Assembly: GCA_903859815.1 (NCBI GenBank) | Contig: CAIOOA010000190.1 | Span: 1 to 41,903 of the forward strand | Source: an uncultured Methylococcaceae bacterium | GTDB taxonomy: Bacteria > Pseudomonadota > Gammaproteobacteria > Methylococcales > Methylococcaceae | Reading direction: 5' to 3' | Length of the DNA stretch: 41,903 nt | Shown: in pieces, positions 17,119 through 37,444 of the stretch | How positions within the stretch are numbered: position 1 is the stretch's first letter | Layout of the letters: the number at the start of each line of letters is the position of its first letter | The notes under the pieces: model-generated | Databases searched by the model: none | The model's input: only the letters and a program-made list of their open reading frames with translations | Told to the model about the DNA's origin: nothing | Position numbers and translations under genes: made by a program

Positions 17119-17130
17119 ATGTCGGATGGC

Positions 17131-18624
17131 CTAGCCTCCTGCCGCTACTCGGGCCTGTTCTTCATTGGCCGCTGCTTTCTTCCAAGGTGGCTGGAGCTTG
17201 CTCCAGCAAGGATTGTTGATGGTCATATCCATGTCACGGGCAAAGATGGCAAAGCCGTCGTAGCCGTGATAAGGGCCGGAATAATCCCAAGAGTGCATCT
17301 GACGGAACGGCACACCCATTTTCTGGAAGATGTACTTTTCCTTGATGCCGGAACCAATCAGGTCTGGCTTGATCTTTTTGACGAACTCTTCAAACTCGTA
17401 GCCGGTCACGTCATCGTAAAGCAGGGTGGCATTGCCCATTTCCTTGATGGTGCGGTCATAGTCGTCGTTGTGGCCAAATTCATAGCCAGTGCCGACCACT
17501 TCCATGCCTAGATCCTCGTAAGCGCCAATGACATGGCGGGGACGCAGGCCACCAATGAACAGCATGACTTTCTTGCCTTCCAAGCGTGGCTTGTACTTGG
17601 CGATGACCGCCTCGTATTCAGCTTGGTAGCGGGCAATCACGCGCTCTGCGCCTTCTTTGATCGTATCGTCGAATTGCTCGGCGATCTTGCGCAAGGATTC
17701 GGCAATTTTGGTGGGTCCGAAAAAGTTGTACTCCATCCACGGAACCGAGTACTTCTCTTCCATGTGACGGGCAATGTAGTTCATCGAGCGGTAGCAGTGG
17801 ATCAGATTAAGCTTGACCTTGGGGGTCAATTCGATCTCTGACAAGGTGCCGTCGCCGGACCATTGTGCCACGACGCGCAAACCCATTTCTTCCAACAAGG
17901 TGCGGGAAGACCAAGCATCACCGCCGATGTTATAGTCGCCGATCACCGCCACGTCATAAGGCGTGGACTCGAAGCTGTTGTCGCCATCGCGATTGCCGAT
18001 CACATAGTCGCGTATCGCGTCGTTGGCCAAGTGATGGCCCAAAGACTGGGAAACGCCACGGAAGCCTTCACAACGCACCGGGATGACTGGCTTGCCGATT
18101 TCCTTCGCCGTCTTTTTGGAGACCGCTTCGATGTCGTCGCCGATCAAGCCGATGGGGCATTCCGATTGGACAGAAATGCCTTTGTGTAGAGGGAACAGTG
18201 TTTCGACTTCGCCGATCAACTTGGCAAGCTTCTTGTCGCCGCCGAACACGATGTCCTTCTCTTGGAAATCCGAGGTGAAGTTCATCGTAACGAAGGTGTT
18301 AACGCCCGTGGTGCCGATATAGTAATTACGGCGACCAGCGCGGGAGTACTGTCCACAGCCGACGGGTCCGTGGGAGATATGGATCATATCCTTGATCGGT
18401 CCCCATACCACGCCTTTGGAGCCGGCATAGGCGCAACCACGAATGGTCATTACGCCGGGTAGGGATTTACGGTTTGACGTGATGCATTTGCTCGATTTTT
18501 CAATCGACTGGTCATTGACCGTCAAATGTTTGGCACGATCTTTCTTGGCTTTGTCTGGATAAACCTCAAGCACCTCTTGGATGAGGGCTTCGGTTTCTTC
18601 GCGAGTCATGGCTGTCATAGACAC
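17131..18624 (-). CDS. nifD: nitrogenase molybdenum-iron protein alpha chain NifD
   Basis: NifD carries the FeMo cofactor where N2 is reduced. The 497 residues include P-cluster ligands Cys64 (IRGCAYAG), Cys90 (GPVGCGQYS) and Cys156 ([13 protein letters not shown]). The cofactor ligands are Cys277 ([11 protein letters not shown]) and His444 ([13 protein letters not shown]), so this is a functional Mo-type subunit. Start ATG 18624 has a CAGGAGGTGTCT ribosome site. It ends in TAG at its normal length, which shows that TAG works as a stop in this genome. It is in operon order nifH-nifD-nifK. Call certain. Confidence 0.98.
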
Positions 18625-18642
18625 CTCCTGGATTCAGTGGTT

Positions 18643-18675
18643 AGTGATTAGTGGTCAGTGATTAGTGGTCAGTGA
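18643..18675. repeat. 14-bp tandem repeat in the nifH-nifD spacer
   Basis: AGTGATTAGTGGTC occurs twice in tandem plus a partial third unit. Complementary stretches follow (TGACTGACCACTGAC near 18695-18709 and CACTCATCACTAACCACT near 18759-18776), so the 164-bp spacer can fold into hairpins. Structured nifH-nifD spacers are known in other diazotrophs to give more nifH than nifDK message. Confidence 0.65.
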
Positions 18676-18788
18676 ATGGTGGGACGGTGAAAAATGACTG
18701 ACCACTGACCTGTGCAATGGTGGGTGGCGAGCGATGAGTGGCTATGGCCTAAACCTAAGCACTCATCACTAACCACTACCCACTGCTG

Positions 18789-19718
<930 letters not shown>

Positions 19719-22900: not shown

Positions 22901-23396
22901 TAATGTCGATCAACCGATTGACCGGGCCTTGTACCGATATTTCATAACTCCACGGATCGGCAGCAAACCCAGTCTTTCTCAATGCCTCCCAAGCGATGAC
23001 GCTGCTGACGCGGTGATCCGGGTGCGGCTCAAGAGGCGAAGGGAAGAAGACGCAAGCAGGCTTGGATAATGTGATGGTACTTGCCAACTGATCGATGACC
23101 GATGCATAAGCCAACAACTCACGGTCTGGCAAACGCCAGAAAAACACGTCCCTGATTCCCAACTGTCGCGCAGCCTCCCTAGCCTCGATTTCACGAATAG
23201 GGGCTCTCCCTTTGGCACCGCCCTTGTCACCACTCGTCAAAAACAACACGTCTACGGCAATGCCCTGTTCGGCGGCTAACAGTAGAGCACCCCCCAACCC
23301 AAACGATTCGTCGTCAGGGTGCGGGGAAATGATTAACCAAGGGCCTTGCGGCAGTTTTCCAGCGATAAACGGCAAATACGATTGCTCATTTAGCAT
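19905..23396 (-). CDS. PIG-L deacetylase fused to three family-2 glycosyltransferase domains
   Basis: A 1,163-residue multidomain protein. Residues 18-225 are a PIG-L/LmbE-type zinc deacetylase (SPHPDDESFG 24-33; EPHPDHR 123-129). Residues 247-460 are a first GT-A glycosyltransferase (VSVIIRTKNRP; DDDD at 333-336). A coiled coil spans about 482-550. A second GT2 starts near 624 (SILLPVYNPP; DHDD 713-716) and a third near 884 (VSIIIPTRNRL, later LLMNNDVMV). This architecture suits stepwise building of a surface or capsule glycan with deacetylation of an amino sugar. It has no signal peptide and is probably cytoplasmic or membrane-associated. It lies alone between the nif promoter and a 650-bp AT-rich gap, with no other polysaccharide genes nearby. 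Domain calls are firm, substrate unknown. Confidence 0.88.
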   Translation of the reverse strand: MLNEQSYLPFIAGKLPQGPWLIISPHPDDESFGLGGALLLAAEQGIAVDVLFLTSGDKGGAKGRAPIREIEAREAARQLGIRDVFFWRLPDRELLAYASVIDQLASTITLSKPACVFFPSPLEPHPDHRVSSVIAWEALRKTGFAADPWSYEISVQGPVNRLIDITSVAKRKREIMAIYASQLTQNDYVGRIMSLNQSRAWSLPLDVSHAEALFEWPKEDRPLNAMLLALQAQYRGTDAMPSKVATVSVIIRTKNRPNSLQEAIASVAAQTHRDIELVVVNDGGNDVGDIVRQYATGSVRKAVYESLQPGRGRVGAANAGLDNATGEFLLFLDDDDNISPEHLAKLIQALESNHSAVLAYTDCRMVDVDGNEIGGFEGKFEPYQLMIGNRFPIHAAMFRRNVALAGECRFDPSFDVFEDWDFWLQLQLQGRFHHVGGVSATYRIEPQGSGVHGILGPRSKEYIKIRDKWRKQWPDNWLVDVFEAERKALMLENKALEELQTVSALKNELETFKKKSILLKRETEYLRGELASNQNELLAIKSELATVFNSRAWRLTAFPRALLTWLRHPKKKQVDEEPAVHEDESAKSISYDNYTLWVSDFDTLSPTQRQSIMVKVRAMRQKPFISILLPVYNPPIEFLKKAIESVRSQLYTHWELCIADDASTNEEVKTWLDYFAKLDSRIRVHYRTENGHISQASNTALAMAIGEFVGLMDHDDILPEYALYYVAKAIQENPDAGIIYSDEDKLDEQENRFGPYFKPDWNYELFLGQNLISHLGVYRRSLLNEVEGFRVGFEGSQDHDLALRCVERLQPNQIIHIPRILYHWRMHAESTASSIDAKPYALTAGVQAINEHLARTCPGAKAEVDRQFNNYRVRFPVPDPEPRVSIIIPTRNRLDLISPCIDSILSTTEYGNYEILVVDNNSDQADVLRYLRELEQQKKIRVLRDDRPFNYSALNNRAVAKTEAEFVLLMNNDVMVISPDWLGEMMAVASRPGIGAVGARLWFPNETLQHGGVLLGVHDVAAHAHHGLKRGQPGYCGRASLMQTMSAVTAACLLVRRSIYNEVGGFDEENLAVDFNDVDFCLKVREAGYRNIWTPYAELYHYESASRVVDMSPIQIERFHTEVAFMMRKWGQLLQADPAYNPNLTLKETDFSIAKNPRIPLHG

Positions 23397-24053: not shown

Positions 24054-25607
24054 TCAGCGCACCAACAATTCAGCGCCAAACCAGTCAACAAGAATTTGTC
24101 TATACTTTTCGGCTTTGGCAGTCTGTAGGTGTTCCAATGGATTGAGGTTGTCAGTCAGAATCATGCCTTGACTGGGGTCGACTGCAATCTTCCGTTCTTG
24201 CAACCAAGCCACTTGCTCATTTGATAGTGTCTTGGGGGCCAAGTCCAAAGGACGGTTTGCCGCCACGAAAATAAAATCATTGAACTCCTCGCCAGGCTCG
24301 GACACGAACGCCAACCAATCGGGAAAGACTTGGCCTACGGTCTTGGCGACGGAGGCCAAGGCAGGGTTGCGGCCCGATTGGAAAAAAGACACGAAATTAA
24401 GGGCAAGGATACCACGCTCAGACAACAACCCTCGCAATTGCGACAAAGTTTCGACCGTCAGCAAATGCGCCGGCTCGGAACCGCCAGTGAAACAATCATG
24501 GATAATGAGATCGTAAGGGCCTTGCAAGTGCCGAATTTCATGGCGGGCATCCCCCACAATGCTCTGCCCGGTCGGTGTGAAGCCAAAATAATCCACAGCG
24601 GCGTCTGCGACCGCCGGATCAATTTCCAAGGTGTCGGTTACGATCCCATAACGGTCATGCAAGACCTTGGCCATATGTCCCGCACCCTGACCGACAATCA
24701 AAGCACGAACCATGTTTGGCGACAAGGCCGGCAGCAAACCGACAATATTCTGGTAGGCAAGCCGACTTTTGCCATTGGAAATATTGGCCGCGCCAATCAT
24801 GGATGCGTCGGAAGTCAAGAAGCGCAAGTCGCGGCCCGGTTCCTCAATCACCCTGACCCACCCATACAAGCTTTCGCGCTCGGAAAGGATTTTGAACTGG
24901 TTGCCGCCAGTGTACGAATGCCCGGCACCCACGGCTTGGGGCAACAGGCAAAGGCCGACGAGGGACAGCAGTAGCGTGGGCAAAACGGAACGGTCCAATC
25001 CCAAGCGGGTTTTCTCATAGACAGCCAAGGCCAACGCCAGTCCAAGCAGGCACACCCCCATGCCGACCAAGATTTCCCTCGCCCCCACCAAAGGGAACAA
25101 ATAAAACCCCAACACCAAGGTTCCCACCACACTCCCCAAGGTACTCACCGCATAGATGGAACCAGAGCTAGTGCCCACGCCTTCCAAGCGCACTGTTGAC
25201 AGCTTGATGGCAAACGGACCCACCATCCCTAAGAATGTCAAACTGGGCAGGAACAGCACCAGCGCACTGACGAAAGCCCCCGCCCGCAGGCCCAAAGAAT
25301 CCGTCGCCAATAATACAAAACGGGTTGCCCACGGTATGGCAATCGTCAACACGGCTGCCAGTGCAACGATGATCGAAAGGCCAGTGCGTTGAGCCGTGTC
25401 CGCCCACCTGCCTCCGACAAAATAACCCGTGGCAAGGGCAATCATCGTCACCGAAATGAGTGACGACCAAACATACAAGCTAGTTCCATAGAAAGGCGCA
25501 ATCATCCGTGTTCCCAATAACTCAATCACCATGACCGCGGCGCCGGTCAGGAAGACACAGCAATAAAGTCCAATCCGCCCAATGCTGCCTATCGTTTTAT
25601 CAGTCAT
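24054..25607 (-). CDS. membrane-fused spermidine-synthase-like protein
   Basis: A 517-residue protein. The first 240 residues or so hold about seven membrane helices starting VFLTGAAVMVIELLGTRMIAP, a hallmark of the fused MFS/spermidine-synthase family. The C-terminal half is a SpeE-like Rossmann domain with ALIVGQGAGHMAK (nucleotide site), LEIDP (acidic residue for the ribose) and DLIIHDCFTGGSEPAHLLT. True polyamine activity is not shown for most such fusions, so the substrate is uncertain. It lies 27 bp after apbE and is the last gene of the TlpA-DUF4266-DUF3570-ApbE run; this family often accompanies ApbE/DUF3570 clusters. Confidence 0.85.
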   Translation of the reverse strand: MTDKTIGSIGRIGLYCCVFLTGAAVMVIELLGTRMIAPFYGTSLYVWSSLISVTMIALATGYFVGGRWADTAQRTGLSIIVALAAVLTIAIPWATRFVLLATDSLGLRAGAFVSALVLFLPSLTFLGMVGPFAIKLSTVRLEGVGTSSGSIYAVSTLGSVVGTLVLGFYLFPLVGAREILVGMGVCLLGLALALAVYEKTRLGLDRSVLPTLLLSLVGLCLLPQAVGAGHSYTGGNQFKILSERESLYGWVRVIEEPGRDLRFLTSDASMIGAANISNGKSRLAYQNIVGLLPALSPNMVRALIVGQGAGHMAKVLHDRYGIVTDTLEIDPAVADAAVDYFGFTPTGQSIVGDARHEIRHLQGPYDLIIHDCFTGGSEPAHLLTVETLSQLRGLLSERGILALNFVSFFQSGRNPALASVAKTVGQVFPDWLAFVSEPGEEFNDFIFVAANRPLDLAPKTLSNEQVAWLQERKIAVDPSQGMILTDNLNPLEHLQTAKAEKYRQILVDWFGAELLVR

Positions 25608-25634: not shown

Positions 25635-26543
25635 TCAGGAGTTTGGCCCTTGCACCAAGGAGCCGCCAGTGTCGCCCTGCACATCCACCCATAAATGGGG
25701 TAAACCAAATTGCCTTAGCCAAGCAGGCCCATCCTCCTCCTTGAGCATGCCAATGGTGGAGGCACTGCCCGCCACTACGCAGAAATCACCCACCACACTG
25801 ACCGCCGCCAAAAACCTCACGGGCCAGCCAGTTTTCGGGTTTAGCACATGACCATAGCGGGTGCCGTCCACCGTAATGCAGCGTTCATAGTCCCCGCTGC
25901 TGGCCAGTGCACCGCCACGCAACAATATCGTCTGCATAAAGGCTTCTTTGCCCCGGGGGTCGCGTAGGCCAATCCGCCATGGGCTACCGTCCGCCCGTGG
26001 GCCGATGACCTTGATGTCACCGCCTAGATTGATCATGCCGTGGCGAACTCCAGCCTGCCAGCACAAGGCTGCCGCATGGTCAACGGCATATTCCTTGACC
26101 ACACCGCCAAAATCAATTTCCATTCCCGGAATTTGGAACTCAAGCAAAGGCGGAGCCCAATTCAGTTTGTGCCAACCGACTTTGGCGAGCAATTCTTGGA
26201 TGTGTGTTTGGTCAGGCAATTGACCCGAATCGAATCGCCATGCGCGACGCAGAATGCCCGAGGTAATGTCAAACAAGCCGTCGCTCTGCGCATGGCAGGC
26301 AGCGGCATAATTCAACAACCCAGTCGTTTCCTCATCGACCCTGATCCCACCCCCGTCAGCCGCAACCCGGTTGATGGCGGACAAAAAGCTGTCGCTGCGG
26401 TAGCGCGAATAAAGTGACTCAAGCCGATTGACATCGGCAATGGCCGCTTCTGCGGCCCGCCTAGCCAACCGATGCGTATTGGCAAAAAGCTGAATTTCGC
26501 AGTGTGTGCCCATTGCCTTGAACGCATGTTGCAAAAACTTCAT
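25635..26543 (-). CDS. apbE: FAD:protein FMN transferase ApbE
   Basis: ApbE moves FMN from FAD to a threonine or serine of a target flavoprotein, with Mg2+. The 302 residues contain the family words AMGTHCEIQL near the N-terminus, SRYRSDSFLSAIN, DFGGVVKEYAVD, INLGGDIKVIG and HVLNPKTGWPV. There is no signal peptide or lipobox, unlike many ApbE proteins, so it may act in the cytoplasm or have a missed leader. In this cluster no obvious FMN-accepting S(T)GA(S/T)-type target is adjacent; the DUF3570 partner has been linked to ApbE only by neighbourhood. The gap to the upstream DUF3570 gene is about 70 bp. Identification is secure. Confidence 0.93.
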   Translation of the reverse strand: MKFLQHAFKAMGTHCEIQLFANTHRLARRAAEAAIADVNRLESLYSRYRSDSFLSAINRVAADGGGIRVDEETTGLLNYAAACHAQSDGLFDITSGILRRAWRFDSGQLPDQTHIQELLAKVGWHKLNWAPPLLEFQIPGMEIDFGGVVKEYAVDHAAALCWQAGVRHGMINLGGDIKVIGPRADGSPWRIGLRDPRGKEAFMQTILLRGGALASSGDYERCITVDGTRYGHVLNPKTGWPVRFLAAVSVVGDFCVVAGSASTIGMLKEEDGPAWLRQFGLPHLWVDVQGDTGGSLVQGPNS

Positions 26544-26613: not shown

Positions 26614-29313
26614 TCAAAACCCGTAACTCCACGTTGCGGCAAGCGAACCCGTGCGTTGGAGTTGATAGCCATTCACGTCATCATAGACCGGCTGAATCCA
26701 TTCGAAACTAAAGCGGGTACCTTGCAAATTACCGGTTGGCACCATCGCGTTGATGCCAAACCCAACGTCCCAATAACGCCCACCATAGCTGTTGGCATAA
26801 TCCATTGGGCCAATGGGATAATAAGTCGAGTTGTACGCCCCTTTCAGCGCACCTTGCGTAATGAAGGCCCCTCGAACCGATGCGGTCAGCCAATCCAATA
26901 GGTCAAACCCACCCCACGCCGTAGCTTGTAAAATATCGCCGAACGCAAACCCTGATGAATTTTGATCTTCGAGCCGATGCGTGCCGCTAAGCTGCGCACC
27001 CCAAGACCATTTGTTGATCTGCCCGGTATAGGTGAGGCTCGGTTTGAAATCCCAAGTGCCACTCCCCAATTGCATACCGTAATGAATGAAACCGAGGGCT
27101 ATCCCGTGTGTATTTCTGAGAGTGATGCCCACATCGCCCGTTGGCGCACTGATGCCAAAGGTCGCATGGATATGATGCCCGGACTTTTCAAACAATCTGA
27201 ACAGCGCATACATGCCAACATCGCCTAGGCCGCCCGTCTGGTGTGTGTGGAAGGCATGCATCACGGCAGCGGAAGTCCCAGGGCTGGCATCTGCAATACT
27301 CGGCGCACCGTCCAAAGGCCGCATATCCATGTTCATATCGACAAATTGCGGCATCAGCATCAAGGTTAACCAATCCAGTGGCGCATACATCAGATCGAGC
27401 ATATGCATGTTCATATACATGCTCGTAGGCGTCACATAACAAGGATCTCCATAACATCCATTGTTCACAATGTCCTTGTCGATCACCCAGTCTTTCCCAT
27501 GCAGGATGTCGCCATTTTGCGAAGCCCACATATACCGGTAGCCAAGCATGAAATCACCCGCGTTGGCCAGCATATGGTCAAACATGACACCTGCCGGGCC
27601 ATGAACTCCGTGGTGATGGTGATGGGTTTCATGGCCTGCATGGTCTCCGTGACCGGCGTGTTCGCCAGATTTGGCATTGCCAAAACTTGCCATGGTGACC
27701 GCCGATAAATCAACGTTCACACCGGCATTAAAACGGTAATAATTAAAATCCGCATAAGAACCCTCGCCATCGCCACCCATTTTCAACGAGCCTGCATGGG
27801 TATAATATTCAGCACCGGCCTCAAGGGTGATGCCCTTGGCAAAGCGCTTGGAAACGGTTATCCCCGTACTAATTGCCCCGTAACCCGACAACCGTTGGTC
27901 ACTGGAGAAATTAGTCGGCAAAAGGCTAGGATTAAGCACCGCAACGGTGAATTTTTTGGTCACAGGGTCAAACGTGCGGCGTCCGGGATAATCTTGAAAG
28001 GACACCATATAGGGCTGGTAAAAGTCGGCTTCGTTCTGCGTGTAATAGCGTAGCATGGGGGTCACAGTCCAACCGTCCACCACTGGCTGCGCCCAATCGA
28101 CTTCAAAGGTATGGGATGTTATGCCCCAATCGTCGGTGTAGAATCGGTAGTCGCCATGCAAAGCCGCGCCATTCAATGCATCAATATGCTGGACATAACT
28201 CAGGTTGCCTATCCATTGATTGCGTTCGTCAGGCCGGACTTCCAACATCGACAGCGATGTTCCCGTGAGTATCGTCGTAGGGGTTATTTTTTGCGTTTGC
28301 TTGGGGTCGATGAAAACCGTAGTCACCGCTTTGTAAGGGTTTGCCAAATACCCCGTATTCCGGGTAAAGCCAAAACTCCCCACCAACAGTGCATTTTTAT
28401 TCAACACCTGAGTCACGCTTAAATTGGTAGCCCAATCTTCACGATTACCCGTGAGGAGTTTATTGTTGACTTGCGACCCACCAACAACTTCAATTTGACT
28501 TGTTCTGTGAGTGTCATTATAGGTTTTTAATCCAGTGGACGTATCATATATGTAGGGCGTGGCATCATGATCGAGTATGGAGTTGATATCACTATTGGTG
28601 TAACTCAACCCTACCATTAAACTAGTAAGCTTTTGGTTAAAGTCGAAGCGTCCCAGCACGTTGCCGAATCGCGATTCATAGTCATGCTCCGAGGAAACGC
28701 CCCCACCCACATCCAACGCCGCCTCGTCCCATTCGTAAGCAAATTTAAAATCACCTTGCTTGCGCGTCTCCGGCGAGGCCATCGCCAAGGTGTGAACTAA
28801 TTGCGTATTTGGGCTGTATTTGCCCGTGTTCGGATCTTGCTTAAGCGGGTTTAATTGAGCATCCAAACGCACCGTGCCTATCGATAAATAAGGCGATGCG
28901 CCGGATTCAGTATTGACATGGTTTCCCCCAAAAACTAAGGGGGCGGTGGCCACTGGCGTGGCACCGCCCCAAGTATCTTGGGTATAATTGAAAGCAAATT
29001 TTAGCCGGTCAGTCACACTGACTTGACCACCGCCTTGCAAAGTGTCGACCTGTATCGGCTTTAAATTGCTTTGCACACCGTAGGTATGGCGTTTACTTTC
29101 TTCGTAATGACCATACTGAAAACTGGCCTGCTCCTGCTCCACAGCCTGTGCTTGTGACATCAAACCCGGCAAGGCAAGGGCTGCTGCTGTCAGCGCATTC
29201 AATGCCATGCTGGCCGAAGCCAAAGGTTCAAGCTTGGCGAATTCGCAAGTTTCGACAGGGGCTACTGCTTGAAAAGGCTCACTTGGCGGCTTTGTATTGC
29301 CTGGACGAGACAT
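26614..29313 (-). CDS. DUF3570 barrel fused to a His/Met-rich transporter-like barrel
   Basis: Using ATG 29313 (MSRPGNTKPPSEPF) the protein has 899 residues; the frame is open to 29361, but that part overlaps the DUF4266 gene. A leader with a hydrophobic segment ends GLMSQAQA. Up to about residue 545 is the DUF3570 beta-barrel (VDTLQGGGQVSVTDRLKFAF, DLNYYR-type strands). Residues about 550-575 form a histidine-rich linker (GHGDHAGHETHHHHHGVHGP). From there the protein becomes another outer-membrane barrel family (MLGYRYMWASQNG) with a Met-rich stretch near 631-661 (MYMNMHMLDLMYAP, VDMNMDM). It ends in Phe. His and Met clusters suggest binding of copper or another soft metal at the cell surface. 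It probably inserts in the outer membrane. DUF3570 identity is firm; the fusion and the metal role are inference. Confidence 0.82.
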   Translation of the reverse strand: MSRPGNTKPPSEPFQAVAPVETCEFAKLEPLASASMALNALTAAALALPGLMSQAQAVEQEQASFQYGHYEESKRHTYGVQSNLKPIQVDTLQGGGQVSVTDRLKFAFNYTQDTWGGATPVATAPLVFGGNHVNTESGASPYLSIGTVRLDAQLNPLKQDPNTGKYSPNTQLVHTLAMASPETRKQGDFKFAYEWDEAALDVGGGVSSEHDYESRFGNVLGRFDFNQKLTSLMVGLSYTNSDINSILDHDATPYIYDTSTGLKTYNDTHRTSQIEVVGGSQVNNKLLTGNREDWATNLSVTQVLNKNALLVGSFGFTRNTGYLANPYKAVTTVFIDPKQTQKITPTTILTGTSLSMLEVRPDERNQWIGNLSYVQHIDALNGAALHGDYRFYTDDWGITSHTFEVDWAQPVVDGWTVTPMLRYYTQNEADFYQPYMVSFQDYPGRRTFDPVTKKFTVAVLNPSLLPTNFSSDQRLSGYGAISTGITVSKRFAKGITLEAGAEYYTHAGSLKMGGDGEGSYADFNYYRFNAGVNVDLSAVTMASFGNAKSGEHAGHGDHAGHETHHHHHGVHGPAGVMFDHMLANAGDFMLGYRYMWASQNGDILHGKDWVIDKDIVNNGCYGDPCYVTPTSMYMNMHMLDLMYAPLDWLTLMLMPQFVDMNMDMRPLDGAPSIADASPGTSAAVMHAFHTHQTGGLGDVGMYALFRLFEKSGHHIHATFGISAPTGDVGITLRNTHGIALGFIHYGMQLGSGTWDFKPSLTYTGQINKWSWGAQLSGTHRLEDQNSSGFAFGDILQATAWGGFDLLDWLTASVRGAFITQGALKGAYNSTYYPIGPMDYANSYGGRYWDVGFGINAMVPTGNLQGTRFSFEWIQPVYDDVNGYQLQRTGSLAATWSYGF

Positions 29314-29326
29314 GGGCTGTTTAGGT

Positions 29327-29551
29327 CTAATAACAGCCACAACCACCTCCGCCAGCGGCACCTCCGCCAGAGGACGCTTCGCGACTGCCGTACTGGTGGG
29401 AGCGTAGAGAATTTTGCAGAGGTGAAGGGTTTAAAGCCATGTGCGGCTTGGCAAGATTACCACGCTCCCAAGGGGCAACGTTCGCACAGGCTGTCATGCC
29501 AAAGGTAGCGGCGAGCAATATCGCAAGGATGGCAAACTTTACAAATTTCAT
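29327..29551 (-). CDS. DUF4266 lipoprotein
   Basis: A 74-residue lipoprotein. The signal ends GMTAC, so Cys22 is lipidated. The rest is the DUF4266 signature: ANVAPWERGNLAKPHMAL, then RSHQYGSREASSGG, and a glycine-rich tail ending CGC plus an aromatic residue. DUF4266 proteins are almost always next to DUF3570, ApbE and a TlpA-like thioredoxin, as here. The role is unknown; the C-terminal Cys pair and thioredoxin neighbour suggest redox or metal handling. Confidence 0.88.
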   Translation of the reverse strand: MKFVKFAILAILLAATFGMTACANVAPWERGNLAKPHMALNPSPLQNSLRSHQYGSREASSGGGAAGGGGCGCY

Positions 29552-29587: not shown

Positions 29588-30094
29588 CTAAGGTTTCTCG
29601 GCCAGCAACTGTTCAGCCAAACCTCGAAACTCTTTTGCCTCGTCGGGACGGAAACCTAAATGCACATAGCGAATGATGCCCTTGCGATCAACTAGGTAGG
29701 AGGAAGGCATGGCCTTAACGCCGAAATCCTTGGCACATTGCTGGGCTGCATCGGACACTATATGAAAGCTTGCAGGGTGTTGTTCCAAGAACGCCTTGGC
29801 ATCTTCGTCGGCTTCGTCCAAGTTAATGCCGATGATTTGCAAACCTTGACTCTTGAGGTCTCGATGCAACTCATTTAAAAATGGAAAGGATTGCGCACAA
29901 GGTCCGCACCATGAAGACCAGAAGTCCACATAAAGAACTTTGCCCCGAAATTGCTTAAGGTTGTAGTTTTGTGTCCCACCAATGGCAGACAATGCACAAT
30001 CGGGGGCGACACCCCCAACTTCTGCCGCCAGTGCGGTTGGCAAAGAGCAGGCCAATGCAATAACACCCAAAATCATCGATAAGCACTGAGTCAT
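29588..30094 (-). CDS. TlpA-like periplasmic thioredoxin
   Basis: A 168-residue thiol-disulfide oxidoreductase of the TlpA/ResA type. A signal peptide (about 1-24, ending ALAAE) sends it to the periplasm. The active site is WCGPC (Cys63, Cys66) within VDFWSSWCGPCAQSFPFLN, and the cis-proline loop is AMPSSYLVD. Such proteins keep cysteines of exported metalloproteins reduced. It lies 36 bp before the DUF4266 gene and 10 bp after a small secreted paralogue, so these may be one transcript. Family call is certain; the client is not known. Confidence 0.9.
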   Translation of the reverse strand: MTQCLSMILGVIALACSLPTALAAEVGGVAPDCALSAIGGTQNYNLKQFRGKVLYVDFWSSWCGPCAQSFPFLNELHRDLKSQGLQIIGINLDEADEDAKAFLEQHPASFHIVSDAAQQCAKDFGVKAMPSSYLVDRKGIIRYVHLGFRPDEAKEFRGLAEQLLAEKP

Positions 30095-30104
30095 GGGTGA
30101 TCAA

Positions 30105-30554
30105 TTATTGTAGTTGCAACACTTGAATATTAGTGCCTGTGCTATTATTATTAGCGTCTTGGCAATCCCATCCAATGGTGAAATTCCTCGCCCCGACATT
30201 CGTTTTACGGATTGAAACATAATAATTACCGGCACCCCCATTAACACTAATGATGTCACTCCATCCGCCATCTCCAGAAGCTGAGTCGGTAGCCGTAGTC
30301 ATTTTGTTTTCTTTAAAAATATGCACACTCACCAGCAATCCATTCACTGGCGATGAATTATCCTGAACCGCAGCGGAAAAATGGTGGGTCCCTTCAGGGC
30401 AAGATGCAACAGCAAGATCGGTTGCACTGGCATTGTTACCAGCCTGGTCCAATGTTGTTCCGGCAATGCCATAAGCCATTGCCGAATGGGTATAACCCGA
30501 AACAACTAAAACCAATATTGCGATTAAAGAAACTTTAAATACTGAGCGATTCAT
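30105..30554 (-). CDS. small secreted protein, paralogue 1
   Basis: A 149-residue exported protein with a signal peptide ending SAMA (cleavage expected before YGIAGTT). The mature part is about 120 residues and beta-rich. It shares with the next gene the words GNNASATDLA, SPVNGLLVSVHIF, NKMTTATD, SGDGGWSD and YYVSIRKTNVGARNF. Two cysteines are conserved (VASC and WDCQD), probably a disulfide. A GAGG ribosome site lies eight bases before the ATG. It is 120 bp after its paralogue and 10 bp before the TlpA-like gene. I do not recognise the family. Confidence 0.78.
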   Translation of the reverse strand: MNRSVFKVSLIAILVLVVSGYTHSAMAYGIAGTTLDQAGNNASATDLAVASCPEGTHHFSAAVQDNSSPVNGLLVSVHIFKENKMTTATDSASGDGGWSDIISVNGGAGNYYVSIRKTNVGARNFTIGWDCQDANNNSTGTNIQVLQLQ

Positions 30555-30674: not shown

Positions 30675-31151
30675 TTACTGAACCTGCAAAACAGTAATAT
30701 CAGTACCTACATGAGTTGAAAAAGAGCCCATGCAATGGTATATTATTTCAAAATTTCTTACCCCAGCCTTGGTTTTGCTAACCGATATATAATATAACTG
30801 AACACCATCAGATAATCTTTCCCCACCCACCAATACCGCCTCATTACTAGCTGCCACATCCCCAGAAACAGTATCGGTGACATTCGTCATTTTATTGCCG
30901 CCATAAATCTGTGCGCTAAGCAATAAACCAGAGACAGGGGGTGATAAATCTTTTATCTGAACAACCAGATGATCAGGCTGACCATTGCCGTCATCGTAAC
31001 AAAAAACTTGAGCAAGATCGGTTGCACTGGCATTGCCTCCGCCACCGTCAATGGTTGCGCCAGCGCTATGAGCCATGAGTTGACTGGAATAGCTTGCCAC
31101 TATCAAAATTGATGCTGAAATAAAGGATTTTTTAAACAGTGCGCTTATCAT
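30675..31151 (-). CDS. small secreted protein, paralogue 2, predicted N-terminal His
   Basis: A 158-residue exported protein, clearly a duplicate of the 30105-30554 gene. The signal peptide ends SQLMA, so the mature chain would begin His-Ser-Ala-Gly. Shared segments are GGNASATDLA, SPPVSGLLLSAQI, NKMTNVTDTVSGD, YYISVSKTKAGVRNF and a late Cys (IIYHCMG). A GAGG ribosome site is eight bases upstream. The free N-terminal histidine parallels the larger secreted pair upstream and could be a metal ligand, but paralogue 1 lacks it. No known domain recognised. Confidence 0.78.
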   Translation of the reverse strand: MISALFKKSFISASILIVASYSSQLMAHSAGATIDGGGGNASATDLAQVFCYDDGNGQPDHLVVQIKDLSPPVSGLLLSAQIYGGNKMTNVTDTVSGDVAASNEAVLVGGERLSDGVQLYYISVSKTKAGVRNFEIIYHCMGSFSTHVGTDITVLQVQ

Positions 31152-31540
31152 AACTAAACCTCAAACCTCTTGAACAGAGGAATTTAAAACCAAATAAACC
31201 TGCCATCAACCACACACAGAATTACCCGGTTTGGATTGTTGCAACCACTTTCGCCCATGAGTAACTTAGGCACTGCCTCAATACAGTAGCAACGCCAGTC
31301 AGTTGCCTGATGCAAACCAACTGGCCATCCATTAACGCTATTCAATGCTTTGTTCGGTGATTATAACATCATGCCGATCAACTAGCCTAGCTATTATTTT
31401 ATATATCCATTAGCAATCTTACGTTAAAGGGAAAAATTGCAAAAATGAATTAGCATGGCAAGGCATCTGCTTGTCTGCCACCGATAGTGGAAGGCATGGC
31501 ATGATTGAACCTTACATAAATACATTATTCGGCTTAACCT
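31152..31540. other. intergenic stretch, no gene seen
   Basis: About 390 bp of AT-rich sequence upstream of the small paralogues; it must hold their promoter, but no clear elements were found. There is no coding potential on either strand. Confidence 0.4.
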
Positions 31541-31576
31541 AAAAAAAATCTACGGTACTATTCAGTACCGTAGATT
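31541..31576 (-). terminator. Rho-independent terminator of the larger secreted protein gene 1
   Basis: A perfect 13-bp stem (AATCTACGGTACT at 31547-31559, AGTACCGTAGATT at 31564-31576) with a 4-base loop is followed on the minus strand by eight T. It lies about 95 bp after the stop at 31671 and separates this gene from the small pair. Confidence 0.88.
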
Positions 31577-31670
31577 ATAAACAGTCCAGACATTGAAAGA
31601 CCGGAAAAAATTTTTTGTAAAAAAATCCCCGACTAATCTATCCGTAATGTAGGCAAGCCACTAATAAAGT

Positions 31671-32612
31671 CTATTGCCAATAAAGGGTTCCCGTCTGATC
31701 GGGTTTCGACCAAACCGGGATTTCCTTGTTAATTTGATCGGCAGATGGGTAAACATACACATCATCTCCCGCTCCACCATTACCTTGACAACCAGCAGGC
31801 AATGGGTTTTTCGCCACGTTTCTAGTGACTGTCAATGTAGCAGGCGATCCCCATCCATCACCGGGTATAGTGTGGGCTGCATCCTGATAACCATCATACT
31901 TGGAATAAGCTGACCCAACTGGGATTTTACGGGCGGGGTCTCCTGCCGGTGTGCCAAACGGTGAACCGGGAACACCCGTAAAATTAGGAATCGGGGACCA
32001 ATAAAGCACCTCATGATCCTTAGCAGTCGCGCTAGGCACGGAAACAGTACAAAAATCGGCTATCGCCAGTTCAAATGTCACGGAACGCGCACAGGATTTC
32101 GAATTAATAGTCATTGCGTGCGTATAAAAAGGTACATTGACAGGCGTGGACATGGTTTGATCATAATAATCACCACCCGCCCAGAACCCATCTACATTTC
32201 CTAGAGGATCAGCTTTATTATTATGGGGTCGCCACGGACCACCCGTGCGAATTATCTGACCAATACCAGTCAAGGGTGAATAAAAATCGGATGCGGGCTT
32301 AGTAGTATAGACTGTACCAGATCCCGAGTTTATCCCAATTACAGGAGAATAACTAACTGCATTGGGGAACACTACACTGGTCCCATAAGTGGGTTGCCGT
32401 TGAGTGCCAGGTGCTATATCGGGACAACCATGTGAAATGACCACTTGGTTTAAAACTTTTCCGACTTGAGCATGACCATTGGTTGTGCCTTCGACAACAA
32501 CGGGTATTTCAAGCCTTGTATGGGCCACCGCGTCGTGACTTATAATTGAGAAAATTGAGGCAGTCGCAACATAGCAAATCGCCAATTGCTTAAACCTTAA
32601 CGTGTTCATCAT
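31671..32612 (-). CDS. secreted protein with predicted N-terminal His, paralogue A
   Basis: From ATG 32612 (GGAGG ribosome site six bases upstream) the protein has 313 residues. The signal peptide ends SHDAVA, so the mature protein should start HTRLEIPVVVEG. Four cysteines, all shared with paralogue B, occur in ISHGCPD, SKSCARS, ADFCTV and PAGCQG. Other shared words are GTSVVFPNAVSYSP, NVDGFWAGGDYYDQT, VLYWSPIPNFTGVPG and YDGYQDAAHTIPGDGWGS; both end YWQ. The N-terminal part (H...HGC...FPN) recalls YcnI/DUF1775 proteins, where the mature N-terminal His binds Cu(II), but the match is distant and the length greater. Function unknown; export is secure. Confidence 0.8.
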   Translation of the reverse strand: MMNTLRFKQLAICYVATASIFSIISHDAVAHTRLEIPVVVEGTTNGHAQVGKVLNQVVISHGCPDIAPGTQRQPTYGTSVVFPNAVSYSPVIGINSGSGTVYTTKPASDFYSPLTGIGQIIRTGGPWRPHNNKADPLGNVDGFWAGGDYYDQTMSTPVNVPFYTHAMTINSKSCARSVTFELAIADFCTVSVPSATAKDHEVLYWSPIPNFTGVPGSPFGTPAGDPARKIPVGSAYSKYDGYQDAAHTIPGDGWGSPATLTVTRNVAKNPLPAGCQGNGGAGDDVYVYPSADQINKEIPVWSKPDQTGTLYWQ

Positions 32613-32789
32613 AGCGTACCTCCAGAATTTGAATATTGTTATCATTGATATTCATCTGTTTGACAATTAGGCAATGCCAAAAAGATGCAAATAAACAATA
32701 TCATATTACATGCCACCCCTTATAATACTGATAATTAACAAAAATGGATGTACTAATTCAGATCATGCTGAGTCAAATAACCAATGCTC

Positions 32790-32805
32790 TGTGTGATATG
32801 CCACA
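32790..32805. promoter_or_regulatory. CRP/FNR-like TGTG-N8-CACA site upstream of paralogue A
   Basis: TGTGTGATATGCCACA lies about 180 bp upstream of the paralogue A start. The same 16-mer with one change is found at the same distance upstream of paralogue B, so the word is probably a shared operator. Half-site layout matches the CRP/FNR superfamily, but the regulator is unknown. Confidence 0.5.
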
Positions 32806-32920
32806 GATATTATCACCAACTTATGTATTCGGTTCTGGCGATTAGCTTATAAACCATTGACACCCTTCAGAACACATTAATAAAACCTAGCATCAATATC
32901 TTTTCATGCCAATAAGTCAA

Positions 32921-32957
32921 AAACCCGGTATCCATAACAAGAATGGATACCGGGTTT
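32921..32957 (-). terminator. terminator of paralogue B
   Basis: A perfect 15-bp stem (AAACCCGGTATCCAT at 32921-32935 with its complement at 32943-32957), 7-base loop, ending on the minus strand in a run of five T. It lies 66 bp after the stop at 33023. Confidence 0.8.
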
Positions 32958-33022
32958 GTTTGGGGTCGGTCTATCCTTTCAGGTCACTAAAACGGGATAG
33001 CCTTTTGCAAAGGTTTAAACTA

Positions 33023-33913
33023 TTATTGCCAGTAAACCTCACCCGTTTGATTCGGTTTCTCATAAACAGGTAATTCAACATTGATCTGATTGGCTGAAGG
33101 GTAAACATGGATATCGTCGCCAGCACCGTTATTGCCTGTGCATCCTGAAGGCAGTGGGTTTGTCGTCAAATTACGAGTGACCTTGTAAGTTGCAGGTGAA
33201 CCCCAGCCATCCCCTGGGATTGTGTGGGCTGCATCCTGATAGCCATCATAGTTAGAAAATTTAGGCCCTACTGGAATGCTACGGGCAGCGTCGCCTTTGG
33301 CCGTACCGAACGGCTGACCAGGCACACCGGAGAAATTCGGAATTGGCGCCCAGTACAGGACCTGTTCGTCTGTTGCTGTAGTACTTGATACAGAAGGTTC
33401 GCAAACATCGGCAATCGCAGCGTAGAAGGTTACAGAACGGGCGCATGATGCCTTTGCAATGGTGACAGCCGCCGTATAAAACGGCGACTGCACATAAGTT
33501 GAAATGGTCTGGTCATAATATTTGCCGCCAGCCCAGAAACCATCTTTATTACCTGCCGCATCGACTTTCATATTGCCAGAAGGAAATGCACCACCACCGT
33601 TAATCATGACGGCTATGCCCGCCAATGGTGAATAATAAGTGTTTGCGGCATTGGTGGTATACACTTTGCCAGCACCTGAATCCACACCTATGATAGGTGT
33701 GTAGCTGATGGCATTGGGAAATACCACACTGGTTCCGAAGCTAGGCTTTCTAGCAGTAGCGGGTGGGCAACCATGCGATATGTTTACATAATTGTGAACC
33801 CTAGTCCCTTCAACGGCTGTCGCGGTTTCCAAGCGGGTATGGGCAAAAGCAGCTTGGCTTGCAACGAACGTAGCAATCGCTACCATTCCAAAAAAAAGTG
33901 GTTTATGTGTCAT
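33023..33913 (-). CDS. secreted protein with predicted N-terminal His, paralogue B
   Basis: ATG 33913 follows a textbook AGGAGG-ACAA ribosome site, which fixes the start against the longer frame to 33985. The product has 296 residues. Its signal peptide ends SQAAFA, giving a mature start HTRLETATAVEG, the same residues as paralogue A. It contains the same four cysteines (ISHGCPP, KASCARS, ADVCEP, PSGCTG) and the words GTSVVFPNAISYTP, KDGFWAGGKYYDQT and YDGYQDAAHTIPGDGWGS. Paralogue A lies downstream on the same strand with its own terminator, so each is a separate transcript. A free N-terminal His is needed for copper histidine-brace sites, but other ligands cannot be assigned. Unknown family, possibly YcnI-related at the N-terminus. 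Confidence 0.82.
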   Translation of the reverse strand: MTHKPLFFGMVAIATFVASQAAFAHTRLETATAVEGTRVHNYVNISHGCPPATARKPSFGTSVVFPNAISYTPIIGVDSGAGKVYTTNAANTYYSPLAGIAVMINGGGAFPSGNMKVDAAGNKDGFWAGGKYYDQTISTYVQSPFYTAAVTIAKASCARSVTFYAAIADVCEPSVSSTTATDEQVLYWAPIPNFSGVPGQPFGTAKGDAARSIPVGPKFSNYDGYQDAAHTIPGDGWGSPATYKVTRNLTTNPLPSGCTGNNGAGDDIHVYPSANQINVELPVYEKPNQTGEVYWQ

Positions 33914-34980: not shown

Positions 34981-36189
34981 TTACCCATAAACAGGGGCAA
35001 ACGCCTTTTCTGGTTCAGTGACCGGGCCATCTTCGCCCCAGTAAGGCGACAGCCTGCGCAGTTCTGCGACAATCGGAGGAACCGCAGCAATCACCCTATC
35101 GACTTCCACTTGCGTGGTATAGCGCGACAATGAAAAGCGAATGGTGCCATGGGCCGCCGTATAAGGAATGTCCATCGCCCGCATGACGTGGGAGGGCTCC
35201 AACGAGCCAGAGGTGCAAGCAGAACCCGAAGAAGCCGCAATGCCAGCCTTGTTCAACAGCATCAAAATGCCCTCGCCTTCAATGTATTCAAAGGCAATAT
35301 TGGCAGTATTGGGCAAACGGTTGTTCGGGTCACCGGTGACAAAGCAGTTAGGCACTTGTGAGAGTATGCCCTGCTCCAAGCGATCCCGTAAAACTTTGAC
35401 CTGGGTGTTCTCATACTCGATATGCTCTAGTGCCAGTTCACATGCCTTGCCCAAACCGACCACGGAGGCGGCATTTTCAGTGCCGGCCCGCCGTCCGCGC
35501 TCTTGATGACCGCCGCGAAACAACGGACGGAATCGCGAACCCCGTTTCAAATACAGCACACCGATGCCTTTGGGGGCATGAAGTTTGTGACCCGACACCG
35601 AGAGCATGTCGATCTTGGTATTTTTTAGGTTGATCGGCACTTTGCCGACCGCTTGCACCGCATCTGTGTGAAATTGCACACCGACTGCATGGGCCATTTC
35701 CGCCATTTCCTCGACTGGAAACAGGTTGCCGGTTTCATTATTGGCCCACATGACCGACACAATCGCAACATTGGGGGTCAGCACCCGCTTATATTCCTCC
35801 AAATCCAATCGTCCTTTGCTATCCACGCCGAGTCTATGAATCGTATATCCTTCCTTTTCCAACTGGGTACACAAAGCCAACACCGCAGGGTGTTCGACTG
35901 TCGTGGTGATGATTTCCTTGCGGTTGGGGAAGCATTTCAAGGCCGACAAGATGGCGGTGTTATCCGATTCGGTGCCGCAGGAGGTGAGGATGATTTCCGA
36001 ATCATGCGCTGCGCCAAGCAAAGCTTGGATTTGCTTCCTAGCCTTGCCCAAAGCCCGACCCACGCCCGCGCCAAAGCTATGGATGGATGACGGGTTGCCG
36101 AACTGTTCCAGAAAAAACGGCAGCATCGCCTCGACGACCTTGGGGTCGCATTGAGTTGTGGCGTTATTGTCTAGGTAAATATCAGCCAT
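34981..36189 (-). CDS. nifS: cysteine desulfurase NifS
   Basis: NifS removes sulfur from cysteine, using PLP, to supply Fe-S clusters of nitrogenase. The 402 residues contain YLDNNATT at the N-terminus, ANNETGN, the PLP lysine Lys202 ([12 protein letters not shown]) and the catalytic Cys325 ([10 protein letters not shown]). The sequence around [20 protein letters not shown] is that of NifS rather than housekeeping IscS. The ATG overlaps the nifU stop by 8 bp, so the two are translationally coupled in iscA-nifU-nifS. It has an 11-residue extra tail after the usual end. Call secure. Confidence 0.96.
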
Positions 36190-37102
36190 GGGCCACCTTC
36201 CTAGGCGGTTGTGCCAATTTTTCCGCCGGGACGACTTTAATGAACTCGCCCAATTCTTCCATCAGCCTTTGCTGAATCCCGCCGATGGTCATGGAAGCCA
36301 TGCCACAACTGGAACAAGCACCGATCATCTTGATATAAATCGTGTTGCCGTCCACTTCAACCAGTTCGGCATCGCCTCCGTCCATGCGCAGATTCGGGCG
36401 GATGGATTCAATGACGGCTTCTATGCGGCGGATGCGCTGCACCGTAGTCATGCCGCCGGTTGCGGTTGCTGCAATGGGCAAGGGTTCTGGCTCGACGATG
36501 GCCGGCTTGCTGTCAGCATCGAAAATTTCACCGCGTTCTTCCATGACCCGCATCAGAATTTCCTCAATGCCTTCATGGCAAGCACAGCATCCGCCACCCG
36601 CCTTGGTATAATTGGTGACTTCTTGAACCGTATGCAAATTATTGGCGCGAACCAAGCCTTCAATCAGCTTCTCATCGACGGCAAAGCACTTGCACACCAA
36701 AGCGCCTTCCTCGTGGTCGTCCGCCCATTCCTCACCCTTGAAGTTGGCAATGGCGGCTTGCAGGGCTTCCCTACCCATCACCGAGCAGTGCATCTTTTCC
36801 GGCGGAAGCCCGTCGAGAAAATCGGCAATGTCATCATTGGTGACTTTCAATGCCTCTTCCACCTTCATGCCTTTGATAATTTCGGTCAAGGCCGAGGAGG
36901 AAGCGATGGCCGAACCGCAGCCGAAGGTTTGAAATTTCGCATCTTCGATAATATCGGTGTCAGGATCGACGATGATGCTCAAGCGCAGTGCGTCCCCGCA
37001 GGAGATCGAACCCACATCGCCGATGCCATTGGCACCCGGCAAAGCGCCGACATTGCGCGGTTGAAAGAAATGTTCTTTGACTTTATCTGAATAATCCCAC
37101 AT
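36182..37102 (-). CDS. nifU: Fe-S cluster assembly scaffold NifU
   Basis: NifU is the scaffold on which clusters are built before transfer to NifH and NifDK. The 306-residue protein has all three domains: an IscU-like part with Cys35, Cys62 and Cys106; a central permanent [2Fe-2S] domain with Cys137, Cys139, Cys172 and Cys175; and a C-terminal Nfu domain with the Cys263-x-x-Cys266 pair (ACSSCGMAS). The linker near 200-215 is Pro/Ala-rich as usual. It lies 18 bp after the iscA-type gene. Full-length NifU of this form is specific to nitrogen-fixing organisms and relatives. Certain. Confidence 0.97.
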
Positions 37103-37120
37103 GGTTAATATCTCCTAGCC

Positions 37121-37444
37121 TCAAGCGGAAAATGATTTGCCGCAAGAACACGGGTTCTTGGCGTTCGGGTTGGTGAATTTAAAACCTGAGCCTTCCATGC
37201 TTTCGACGAAATCGACGGTCACTCCGTCAATTTGCGGCGCACTAGTCGGGTCGATGTAAACCTTGACTCCACCCGTTTCGACCACCACATCCTCGCTGGC
37301 GGCAGTCTGTTCTAGCTTGAGTCCGTATTGCATACCCGAGCAGCCACCATCGCTGACCTGGATGCGCAATCCGCTGGCCCCGGTTTCGGAACCGGCAATG
37401 AATCTATTAATGGCCTTGACGGCGTTATCGGTCAATGTAAGCAT
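37121..37444 (-). CDS. iscA: IscA/HesB-type Fe-S carrier of the nif operon
   Basis: A 107-residue A-type carrier that accepts or passes on iron-sulfur clusters. The three ligand cysteines are Cys35 (GGCSGMQYGL), Cys99 and Cys101 (NPCSCGKSF). It is the first gene of the operon with nifU and nifS, as with the IscA-nif gene of Azotobacter, and has its own sigma-54 promoter. It could equally be written hesB or nifIscA. Identification of family is certain; the symbol is a choice. Confidence 0.93.
   Translation of the reverse strand: MLTLTDNAVKAINRFIAGSETGASGLRIQVSDGGCSGMQYGLKLEQTAASEDVVVETGGVKVYIDPTSAPQIDGVTVDFVESMEGSGFKFTNPNAKNPCSCGKSFSA

Follow-up and report, generated by a model that had tools for sequence, protein, structure and literature searches.

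A gene cluster of methanotrophs linking two families of exported proteins with N-terminal histidine to a flavin/thiol redox module: a candidate copper-handling set

A conserved gene cluster, found here in DNA of an uncultured Methylococcaceae bacterium (GCA_903859815.1, contig CAIOOA010000190.1; the 41,903 nucleotides analysed are called the window), joins two families of exported proteins with a free N-terminal His to a flavin/thiol redox module. We give about even chances to the reading that the cluster encodes proteins which bind Cu(II) and carry out redox reactions outside the cytoplasm in the service of copper monooxygenases. Biological methane oxidation and nitrification depend on the enzymes pMMO and AMO, whose copper supply route is not settled, and we know of no redox step outside the cytoplasm that has been pinned down for it. 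The cluster offers a concrete, testable gene set.

Organization of the gene cluster

All genes of the cluster lie on the minus strand; signal peptides were called from A-x-A boundaries and the family alignment. HTRLE1 (33023..33913), an exported DUF1775-like protein, has a signal peptide (33842-33913) with the boundary ...QAAFA^HTRLE. Its mature His1 is encoded at 33839-33841, a second conserved His, that of an HGC motif, at 33773-33775 and Trp164 at 33350-33352. HTRLE2 (31671..32612) is a paralogue with 66% identity and the boundary ...HDAVA^HTRLE (mature part 31674-32522). A small exported protein of the His type (30675..31151; boundary ...SQLMA^HSAGA, mature part 30678-31070) carries co-conserved His 1, 112 and 120 (codons 31068-31070, 30735-30737 and 30711-30713), while its tandem paralogue of the Tyr type (30105..30554; mature part 30108-30473, starting YGIAG) is devoid of all three. 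The first-pass annotation had read the starts correctly, placing the ends of both HTRLE signal peptides right before HTRLE and a His at the start of the small protein.

The remaining genes encode a TlpA/ResA-like thiol-disulfide oxidoreductase of the Redoxin type (29588..30094, Pfam scan), a small exported DUF4266 protein with CxC at its C-terminus (29327..29551, Pfam and sequence), a DUF3570 domain fused to a His/Met-rich C-terminal half (26614..29361) and an ApbE of the FAD:protein FMN transferase family (25635..26543, Pfam). The first three correspond to the thioredoxin, DUF4266 lipoprotein and His/Met-rich barrel named in the first-pass annotation, which had omitted the strand, ApbE and the Tyr-type paralogue. 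A spermidine-synthase-like membrane protein (24054..25607), named by eye with no Pfam hit, is a recurrent neighbour of uncertain membership in the system. No CopC, CopD or PCuAC was found among the eight window genes scanned, and the plasmid collection gave no match.

Mature start and conserved residues of the HTRLE proteins

His is the first mature residue in 132 of the 134 HTRLE homologues readable at this position, a count that leaves out 12 further frames with no letter in the column; residue -1 is Ala in 127 of the 134. The other two homologues start with Asp; of their genes, one is located at the edge of a contig and one is interrupted by an internal stop. Chance was rejected as the origin of the His start, whose frequency far exceeds it. 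The four cysteines already noticed in the HTRLE pair proved near-invariant (C25 138/139, C133 143/143, C147 142/143, C234 141/142, each counted over sequences with a letter in the column). His23 of the HGC motif is kept in 136 of 139 sequences. The three exceptions carry Asp and come from G216, G217 and G221, whose proteins are fusions with the HTRLE domain in an internal position, lacking a free N-terminus. The Trp is aligned in 128 of 143 sequences and shifted in the alignment in the remaining 15. An AlphaFold model built from 11 close sequences (pLDDT 48.6, pTM 0.54) was too poor for testing a metal pocket or a cupredoxin fold. PDB matches of the A1 profile, to an antibody, MCM7, glutaminase and others, were discarded as chance (E 0.029 and worse).

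Relation of the HTRLE proteins to DUF1775/YcnI

By profile comparison the HTRLE proteins are divergent relatives of DUF1775/YcnI. An hhalign comparison with eight DUF1775 proteins, all above the Pfam cut-off, gave a probability of 97.4% (E 9e-12) and brought together His1, HGC (His-Gly-Cys), Cys and Trp. Intermediates that score in both families matched the HTRLE profile at 99.3%, while the A2 profile, made of close HTRLE relatives only, reached just 77% over 41 columns against DUF1775. No Pfam or NCBIfam model matched the HTRLE proteins significantly; both window proteins and all 26 A1 members missed the gathering cut-off of DUF1775 (PF07987), which the intermediates L101, L102, L103, L107 and L091 passed. 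We therefore file the HTRLE proteins as divergent relatives and not as Pfam members; the YcnI link of the first-pass annotation stands for the HTRLE pair as kinship, and fails as membership under the Pfam model.

YcnI of B. subtilis (PF07987; PDB 7MEK, 7ME6) binds Cu(II) via His1, Glu50 and Trp137, and about 40% of DUF1775 proteins, mainly proteobacterial, miss at least one of the three residues, mostly the Glu, according to PMC8424229. The HTRLE Trp aligns with the conserved DUF1775 Trp, itself aligned with Trp137. The His-Gly-Cys lies at or beside the position of Glu50, and the Glu50 ligand itself is absent. For DUF1775 proteins without Glu50 we propose that the remaining ligand is a His, that of the HGC motif.

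The family of small exported proteins

No Pfam or NCBIfam model matched the small protein, for whose family 165 frames were collected. A mature His start was found in 123 of the 158 family members with a letter at position 1. The three His occur together in 118 of the 158, are all absent in 33 and are mixed in 7, four of which are truncated. The first-pass annotation had taken a first mature residue other than His as evidence against its reading. Such starts (Tyr, Leu, Ala and others) occur in 35 of the 158 small-family sequences, 33 of which have neither of the other two His, and in the HTRLE family they are confined to the two Asp genes. Since the window's own paralogue at 30105-30554 starts with Tyr, not every member of the small family is an N-terminal-His protein. 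Judged by eye, most of the non-His members are either tandem paralogues or proteins with a double domain. Small-family genes often stand in tandem copies.

On the best tree the joint loss of the three His takes at least 7, 6 and 7 changes. Well-supported branches yielded only 3 independent pairs (on average 1.8 in the same direction, 1.2 with no difference and 0 opposite). The joint loss thus rests on few independent events, and the test is unable to reach significance.

The small protein is predicted to form a PPC-like beta-sandwich (model pLDDT 91). Foldseek had no hit at E ≤ 0.001, and what it listed were assorted beta-sandwiches. The best VIA-align match was Thermococcus Tk-SP residues 424-522 (Z 10.2, rmsd 2.5, 97 aligned residues, 8% identity); a collagenase PPC domain reached Z 7.5 and many unrelated rows lay at Z 7-9, so the modelled sandwich is a common arrangement. 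CopC- and LPMO-type PDB entries gave no sequence match and were not among the fold rows listed, and the A3 profile had no PDB match up to E 10.

With a probability of 0.1% against the DUF1775 profile, the small protein and the HTRLE proteins are treated as two unrelated His1 families. A single family of both was considered, as they fell into one cluster, and rejected on this value; the joint clustering is probably due to a fusion protein that joins both.

The redox module and conservation of the cluster

ApbE, DUF3570 and DUF4266 lie next to each other and were identified by Pfam with E values of 7.9e-73, 3.3e-110 and 1.7e-21, respectively. The C-terminal half of the DUF3570 protein contains 22 His and 19 Met within its last 355 residues. 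The combination of ApbE, DUF3570, DUF4266 and thioredoxin is described as a flavinylation redox system in PMC8238504, where clusters free of DsbD are reported too. Thus the TlpA/DUF4266/DUF3570/ApbE half of the cluster is a published module. The first-pass annotation had suggested that the whole set may be undescribed, which does not apply to this half; its linkage to the two His1 families was met in none of the papers searched.

The conserved order is HTRLE, in part a HEAT protein, small protein, TlpA, DUF4266, DUF3570 barrel and ApbE. The five-family block was found in 78 of 125 HTRLE regions, from 77 genomes. Among 311 Methylococcales genomes 102 have both HTRLE and small proteins, 33 only HTRLE and 16 only the small protein; Fisher p-values for this co-occurrence overstate its significance because genomes of one order are non-independent. 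TlpA, DUF4266 and DUF3570 are all absent in 36 of the 125 regions, several of them cut by contig ends. Neighbours in these 36 include a small-family gene (9 genomes), a HEAT-type gene (6 genomes) and, in a few, a di-haem peroxidase/MauG-like gene (Pfam run on one, L043); no other neighbour that would explain them was found. Conversely, HTRLE is absent from 77 of the 202 genomes with DUF3570.

Occurrence of pMMO and AMO

Outside Methylococcales, the strongest HTRLE genomes (G631 and G483) encode AMO or pMMO and have block genes near HTRLE, on both strands in G483; one HTRLE-block genome looks like that of an ammonia-oxidiser. PF02461 was absent outside the order in G608, whose HTRLE match is an intermediate-type gene (A1 hit, E 6e-21), and in G611, whose gene is a DUF1775 protein. 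G447, also outside the order, has PF02461, but a DUF1775 protein rather than HTRLE. No pmoA was seen in the window's own assembly, a draft of 315 contigs, while all ten other genomes tested have it. pMMO or AMO accompanies the cluster in most of the genomes tested.

Proposed function and alternatives

From sequence comparison a copper-handling set is plausible. After removal of the signal peptide HTRLE1 and HTRLE2 would bind Cu(II) with His1, through both its amino group and its imidazole, and with the imidazole of His23, the Trp serving as a cap; the small protein may bind copper through His1 and its two further His. TlpA, the CxC protein DUF4266 and the DUF3570 barrel flavinylated by ApbE would act as extracytoplasmic sources of electrons or thiols, which could, for example, convert Cu(II) to Cu(I) or maintain the sites in their loaded state. 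Copper might thereby be acquired, buffered or passed to pMMO/AMO. More tentatively, and with the odds against so detailed a scheme, methane- and ammonia-oxidisers may share an undescribed extracytoplasmic copper system in which a bis-His YcnI (HTRLE) and a three-His PPC-fold protein cooperate with a flavinylated DUF3570/His-Met barrel and TlpA/DUF4266 that, at the outer membrane, reduce the copper used by pMMO/AMO or hand it on.

The alternative that survives best, though we hold it to be unlikely, sees the cluster as a thiol/flavin redox system of general purpose outside the cytoplasm, for disulfide handling or iron reduction, in which HTRLE and small proteins are disulfide-bonded clients and His1 binds zinc or iron or is structural. 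The redox nature of TlpA, DUF4266 and flavinylated DUF3570 fits it, as do the VIT1 iron transporter in 25 published clusters of the DUF3570 type (PMC8238504), the near-invariant HTRLE cysteines and the two Cys kept in the small family. On the other hand, His1, the second His and the Trp of HTRLE are conserved about as strongly as these cysteines, the nearest characterised HTRLE relative is a Cu(II) protein, and the non-His small paralogues retain their Cys, whereas all three His are nearly always missing.

A role as structural or surface-layer parts, with any metal site only stabilising, appears improbable. It would agree with a PPC-like sandwich that often occurs in tandem and with the S-layers on methanotroph envelopes described in PMC11784148; yet a structural protein would not be expected to stay linked to the redox module, as seen in 77 genomes. 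Slightly less credit still goes to catalytic His1 sites that would oxidise a surface polymer in the manner of an LPMO or peroxygenase instead of carrying copper. Histidine-brace proteins include oxygenases (PMC10952591), and carbohydrate-binding and collagen-binding domains are among the weak fold neighbours of the small protein, but LPMOs are absent from the sequence matches to solved structures and YcnI is described as copper-binding and as taking part in copper uptake (PMC8424229, PMC12154828). That His1 has no function and merely reflects shared ancestry at the signal-peptide junction of close homologues was already disfavoured and is very improbable: one bacterial order supplies most sequences, but His1 is kept down to about 21% whole-protein identity, the unrelated second family of the cluster keeps it too, and the three fusions whose domain is not N-terminal have lost His23.

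No paper tying the flavinylation module to two His1 families was found in the open-licence literature searched. In that literature DUF3570 or DUF4266 led only to PMC8238504, and DUF1775 with methanotroph only to PMC8424229 and PMC10952591. Papers that mention methanotrophs together with ApbE did not concern the cluster, judged by title and start of abstract, and none combined ammonia oxidation with copper and a histidine brace. Under our reading the DUF3570 flavinylation systems, of uncertain function, would gain a candidate client.

Comparison with known systems

The cluster resembles those of PMC8238504 in ApbE, DUF3570, DUF4266, the SGAS motif, the CxC end and a thioredoxin-like partner. 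In contrast to them, its DUF3570 is fused to a His/Met-rich second half and has a single SGAS motif, at residue 153, where two conserved [S/T]GA[S/T] motifs are described, and two His1 protein families are added upstream. Its thioredoxin is of the Redoxin/AhpC-TSA (TlpA) type and had no hit to PF13899, a domain present in 183 of 285 published DsbD clusters and hence typical, not universal.

With DUF1775/YcnI the HTRLE proteins share export, mature His1, a Trp at the Trp137 position and a profile match across the domain. The spacing from His1 to HGC, 21 or 22 in 89 of the 132 sequences with both His, is like that of the DUF1775 protein L158 (22). Unlike YcnI, HTRLE contains a long insert, is extended at the C-terminus by a segment with two further Cys, has His where YcnI has Ser49/Glu50, and keeps company with DUF3570/ApbE/TlpA instead of a CopCD operon.

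The predicted fold of the small protein is similar to PPC/collagen-binding beta-sandwich domains, from which it differs by the absence of a sequence match and of an attached protease; a His1 site is, to our knowledge, not a feature of PPC domains. Like the histidine-brace proteins CopC, LPMO and the PCuAC of PmoF, it has, within one exported domain, a free N-terminal His together with additional conserved His, whereas it gave no significant sequence match to solved structures and its predicted fold is PPC-like.

Exported proteins of the window

The genes for all four exported proteins are on the minus strand. HTRLE1 (33023-33913) and HTRLE2 (31671-32612), 66% identical across 282 residues, each carry a signal peptide with an A-x-A end directly before HTRLE, as the first-pass annotation had proposed, and were the only HTRLE matches in their own genome. 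The small exported protein at 30675-31151 had likewise been expected to begin with His, which agrees with its boundary ...SQLMA^HSAGA. Its paralogue at 30105-30554 ends its signal peptide at ...SAMA^YGIAG; thus the small family does not start uniformly with His. The predicted His starts follow from signal-peptide logic and alignment. The named collection contains seven related contigs, labelled uncultured Methylococcaceae, Candidatus Methylumidiphilus alinenensis and Candidatus Methylobacter favarea.

Residue conservation in the HTRLE family

A single-sequence search across 38 genomes of the family found HTRLE homologues in 18. A profile search across 311 genomes of the order found them in 135, a number that counts some genomes with an intermediate or a true DUF1775 protein as top match; PF07987, the DUF1775 model, matched in 8 of the 311, seven of them over the cut-off. 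From 141 regions (140 around matches plus the window) 146 HTRLE-family frames were aligned. The first mature residue (His1) was His in 132 of the 134 frames with a letter there and Asp in two, one of these genes running off its contig and the other having an internal stop; the remaining 12 frames are fragments, fusions or misaligned. Residue -1 was Ala in 127/134. The four cysteines, previously noted as common to the HTRLE proteins, were all but invariant, and Trp164 was present in 128 of 143 frames, the other 15 having a Trp that the alignment places elsewhere.

The His of the His-Gly-Cys (HGC) motif, His23, was kept in 136/139 frames. The three exceptions, each with Asp, are the proteins of G216, G217 and G221 (loci L152, L192 and L195), where a small-protein domain is fused ahead of the HTRLE domain in one frame of 390-405 aa, so that the HTRLE domain lacks a free N-terminus. 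The change is as expected if His1 and His23 act together; the three genomes are close relatives of one genus and may represent a single event.

The small family

Twelve members of the small family gave no match to Pfam or NCBIfam at E 0.01, nor did four further members to Pfam. The predicted structure of the window's small protein (pLDDT 91.2, pTM 0.84) resembles PPC, collagen-binding, GOLD and calpain C2-like beta-sandwiches, a common arrangement; the best fold neighbour had Z 10.2 and rmsd 2.5 with 97 aligned residues, and Foldseek returned nothing at E <= 0.001.

Three histidines were followed in 165 homologous frames: mature residue 1 and those of the Y-H-C and H-T-G-T motifs. Among the 158 frames with a letter at position 1, all three were kept in 118 and all missing in 33. 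Of the seven mixed cases four are truncated frames; L041 reads H-H-Glu, and L205 and L254 read Asp-H-H. A minority of the small family begins with Tyr, Leu, Ala, Val, Gly, Ser, Asp or another residue instead of His. These non-His forms, by eye mostly tandem or double-domain paralogues, retain the Cys. On a tree built without the three His columns at least 7, 6 and 7 changes were needed. Only three independent pairs lay on well-supported branches (mean 1.8 changing the same way, 1.2 showing no difference, none opposite), so the apparent joint loss, though suggestive, falls short of statistical proof.

Gene neighbourhood

Pfam matched Redoxin/TlpA, DUF4266, DUF3570 and ApbE downstream of the window's small genes, in line with the thioredoxin, DUF4266 and barrel genes of the first-pass annotation. 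HTRLE was found in 125 regions from 112 genomes, including G631 outside the order; 16 regions lacked it. Its companions were the small family (96), DUF3570 (86), DUF4266 (85), TlpA (81) and ApbE (69), counts that are conditional because regions were picked around HTRLE or small matches and some stop at contig edges. A set of HTRLE, the small family, DUF3570, DUF4266 and TlpA was complete in 78 regions (77 genomes), and adding ApbE lowers this to 63; 36/125 HTRLE regions had none of TlpA, DUF4266 and DUF3570. The nearest HTRLE-small pair shared a strand in 91/96 cases, HTRLE being upstream in 88. A further exported protein, with HEAT repeats at its C-terminus according to Pfam (two members) and an N-terminal part STN-like by eye, was present in 51/125 HTRLE regions (e.g. 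L138, 8533-9426). It often lies near HTRLE, and many loci have it between the HTRLE and small genes; the window's own cluster lacks it.

Across the 311 genomes, HTRLE and the small family co-occurred in 102, HTRLE alone in 33 and the small family alone in 16, with differing sensitivities since HTRLE was sought by profile and the small family by one sequence. DUF3570 was present in 117/118 small-carrying and 125/135 HTRLE genomes versus 202/311 overall, 77 of the 202 lacking HTRLE; p-values are unusable because the genomes are related.

The His1 families are syntenic with a flavin/thiol module: ApbE, DUF3570, DUF4266 and a thioredoxin-like protein form a published cluster in which ApbE attaches flavin to DUF3570, its function being uncertain with some links to iron (PMC8238504). 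These links would fit a general redox or iron system, which we consider rather unlikely.

Several further genes were seen. The window's DUF3570 protein (26614-29361) has a linker rich in His, HAGHGDHAGHETHHHHH; the protein's second half, rich in Met and His, gave no Pfam match. A spermidine-synthase-like membrane protein (24054-25607; no Pfam match at E 0.01) recurs in 38/125 HTRLE regions. Relatives of a 1163-aa protein (19905-23396), by eye PIG-L/LmbE deacetylase-like with several glycosyltransferase stretches, occur in 10/125. Genes resembling nifK, nifD and nifH (15390-19679) and, on the other side, iscS, nifU and iscA (34981-37444) flank the cluster, all named by eye. Di-haem CCP/MauG-type peroxidase genes lie near HTRLE or small genes in L043 (Pfam CCP_MauG), L047, L051, L255 and L258. 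Peroxidases of this type modify Trp residues of other copper proteins from methanotrophs; HTRLE, too, conserves a Trp.

Copper monooxygenases in HTRLE genomes

In the class sample the HTRLE profile matched in 9/369 genomes, three from the order. PF02461, the model used for pmoA/AmoA, was present in four of the six outside it. The two strongest matches were G631 and G483, whose PF02461 proteins have ammonia monooxygenase subunit A and pMMO, respectively, as nearest PDB entries; HTRLE thus occurs in genomes with pMMO or AMO. G631 carries two HTRLE genes, then small, TlpA, DUF4266, DUF3570 and ApbE on a single strand, and the same set of families in G483 spans no more than 19 kb, with genes on both strands. 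The other two PF02461 genomes have an HTRLE fragment without other block genes on its 10.8 kb contig (G338) and a DUF1775 protein instead of HTRLE (G447). Two genomes count against the link: neither G608, which has an intermediate-type gene at E 6e-21, nor G611, which has a DUF1775 protein, carries PF02461. Within the order pmoA was found in 10/11 genomes tested. The exception is the window's own 99%-complete draft assembly from a methanotroph relative, without pmoA by PF02461; G028 of the same genus carries it, and the absence is perhaps an assembly gap.

Relation to DUF1775 and YcnI

HTRLE1 and HTRLE2 matched no Pfam or NCBIfam model significantly, nor did the 26 members of the family alignment save for one chance Pfam match (E 0.0048). 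Yet kinship with DUF1775, a family that the first-pass annotation named for its N-terminal His ligand, emerged for HTRLE in profile comparisons; the small family had no profile relation to DUF1775. In a profile-profile comparison with eight DUF1775 proteins that each pass the Pfam cut-off, the family alignment reached a probability of 97.4% (E 9e-12), and His1, Gly, HGC, Cys and Trp lined up; against intermediates it reached 99.3%. Close relatives alone reached 77% against DUF1775. Against the HTRLE profile, five intermediates (L101, L102, L103, L107, L091) had E values between 7.6e-22 and 2.3e-25, and they also exceeded the DUF1775 gathering score. His1, HGC and Trp were invariant in the eight-protein set.

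We hold with about even confidence that the HTRLE/small cluster is a copper-handling system. It would bind Cu(II), might reduce it and could serve pMMO or AMO.

In Bacillus subtilis YcnI, according to PMC8424229, the Cu(II) ligands are Glu50 and, from His1 (His27), both the amino group and the side chain, with Trp137 as a cap; many DUF1775 members, mostly proteobacterial, lack the Glu, and other ligands are considered possible. In our alignment of a DUF1775 protein with YcnI, His-Gly falls at Ser49-Glu50. Together with the Glu-less members this leads us to infer that the HTRLE site is a bis-His variant of the one in YcnI. That alignment has a gap here, so the His of HGC in HTRLE may lie at, or beside, the position of Glu50.
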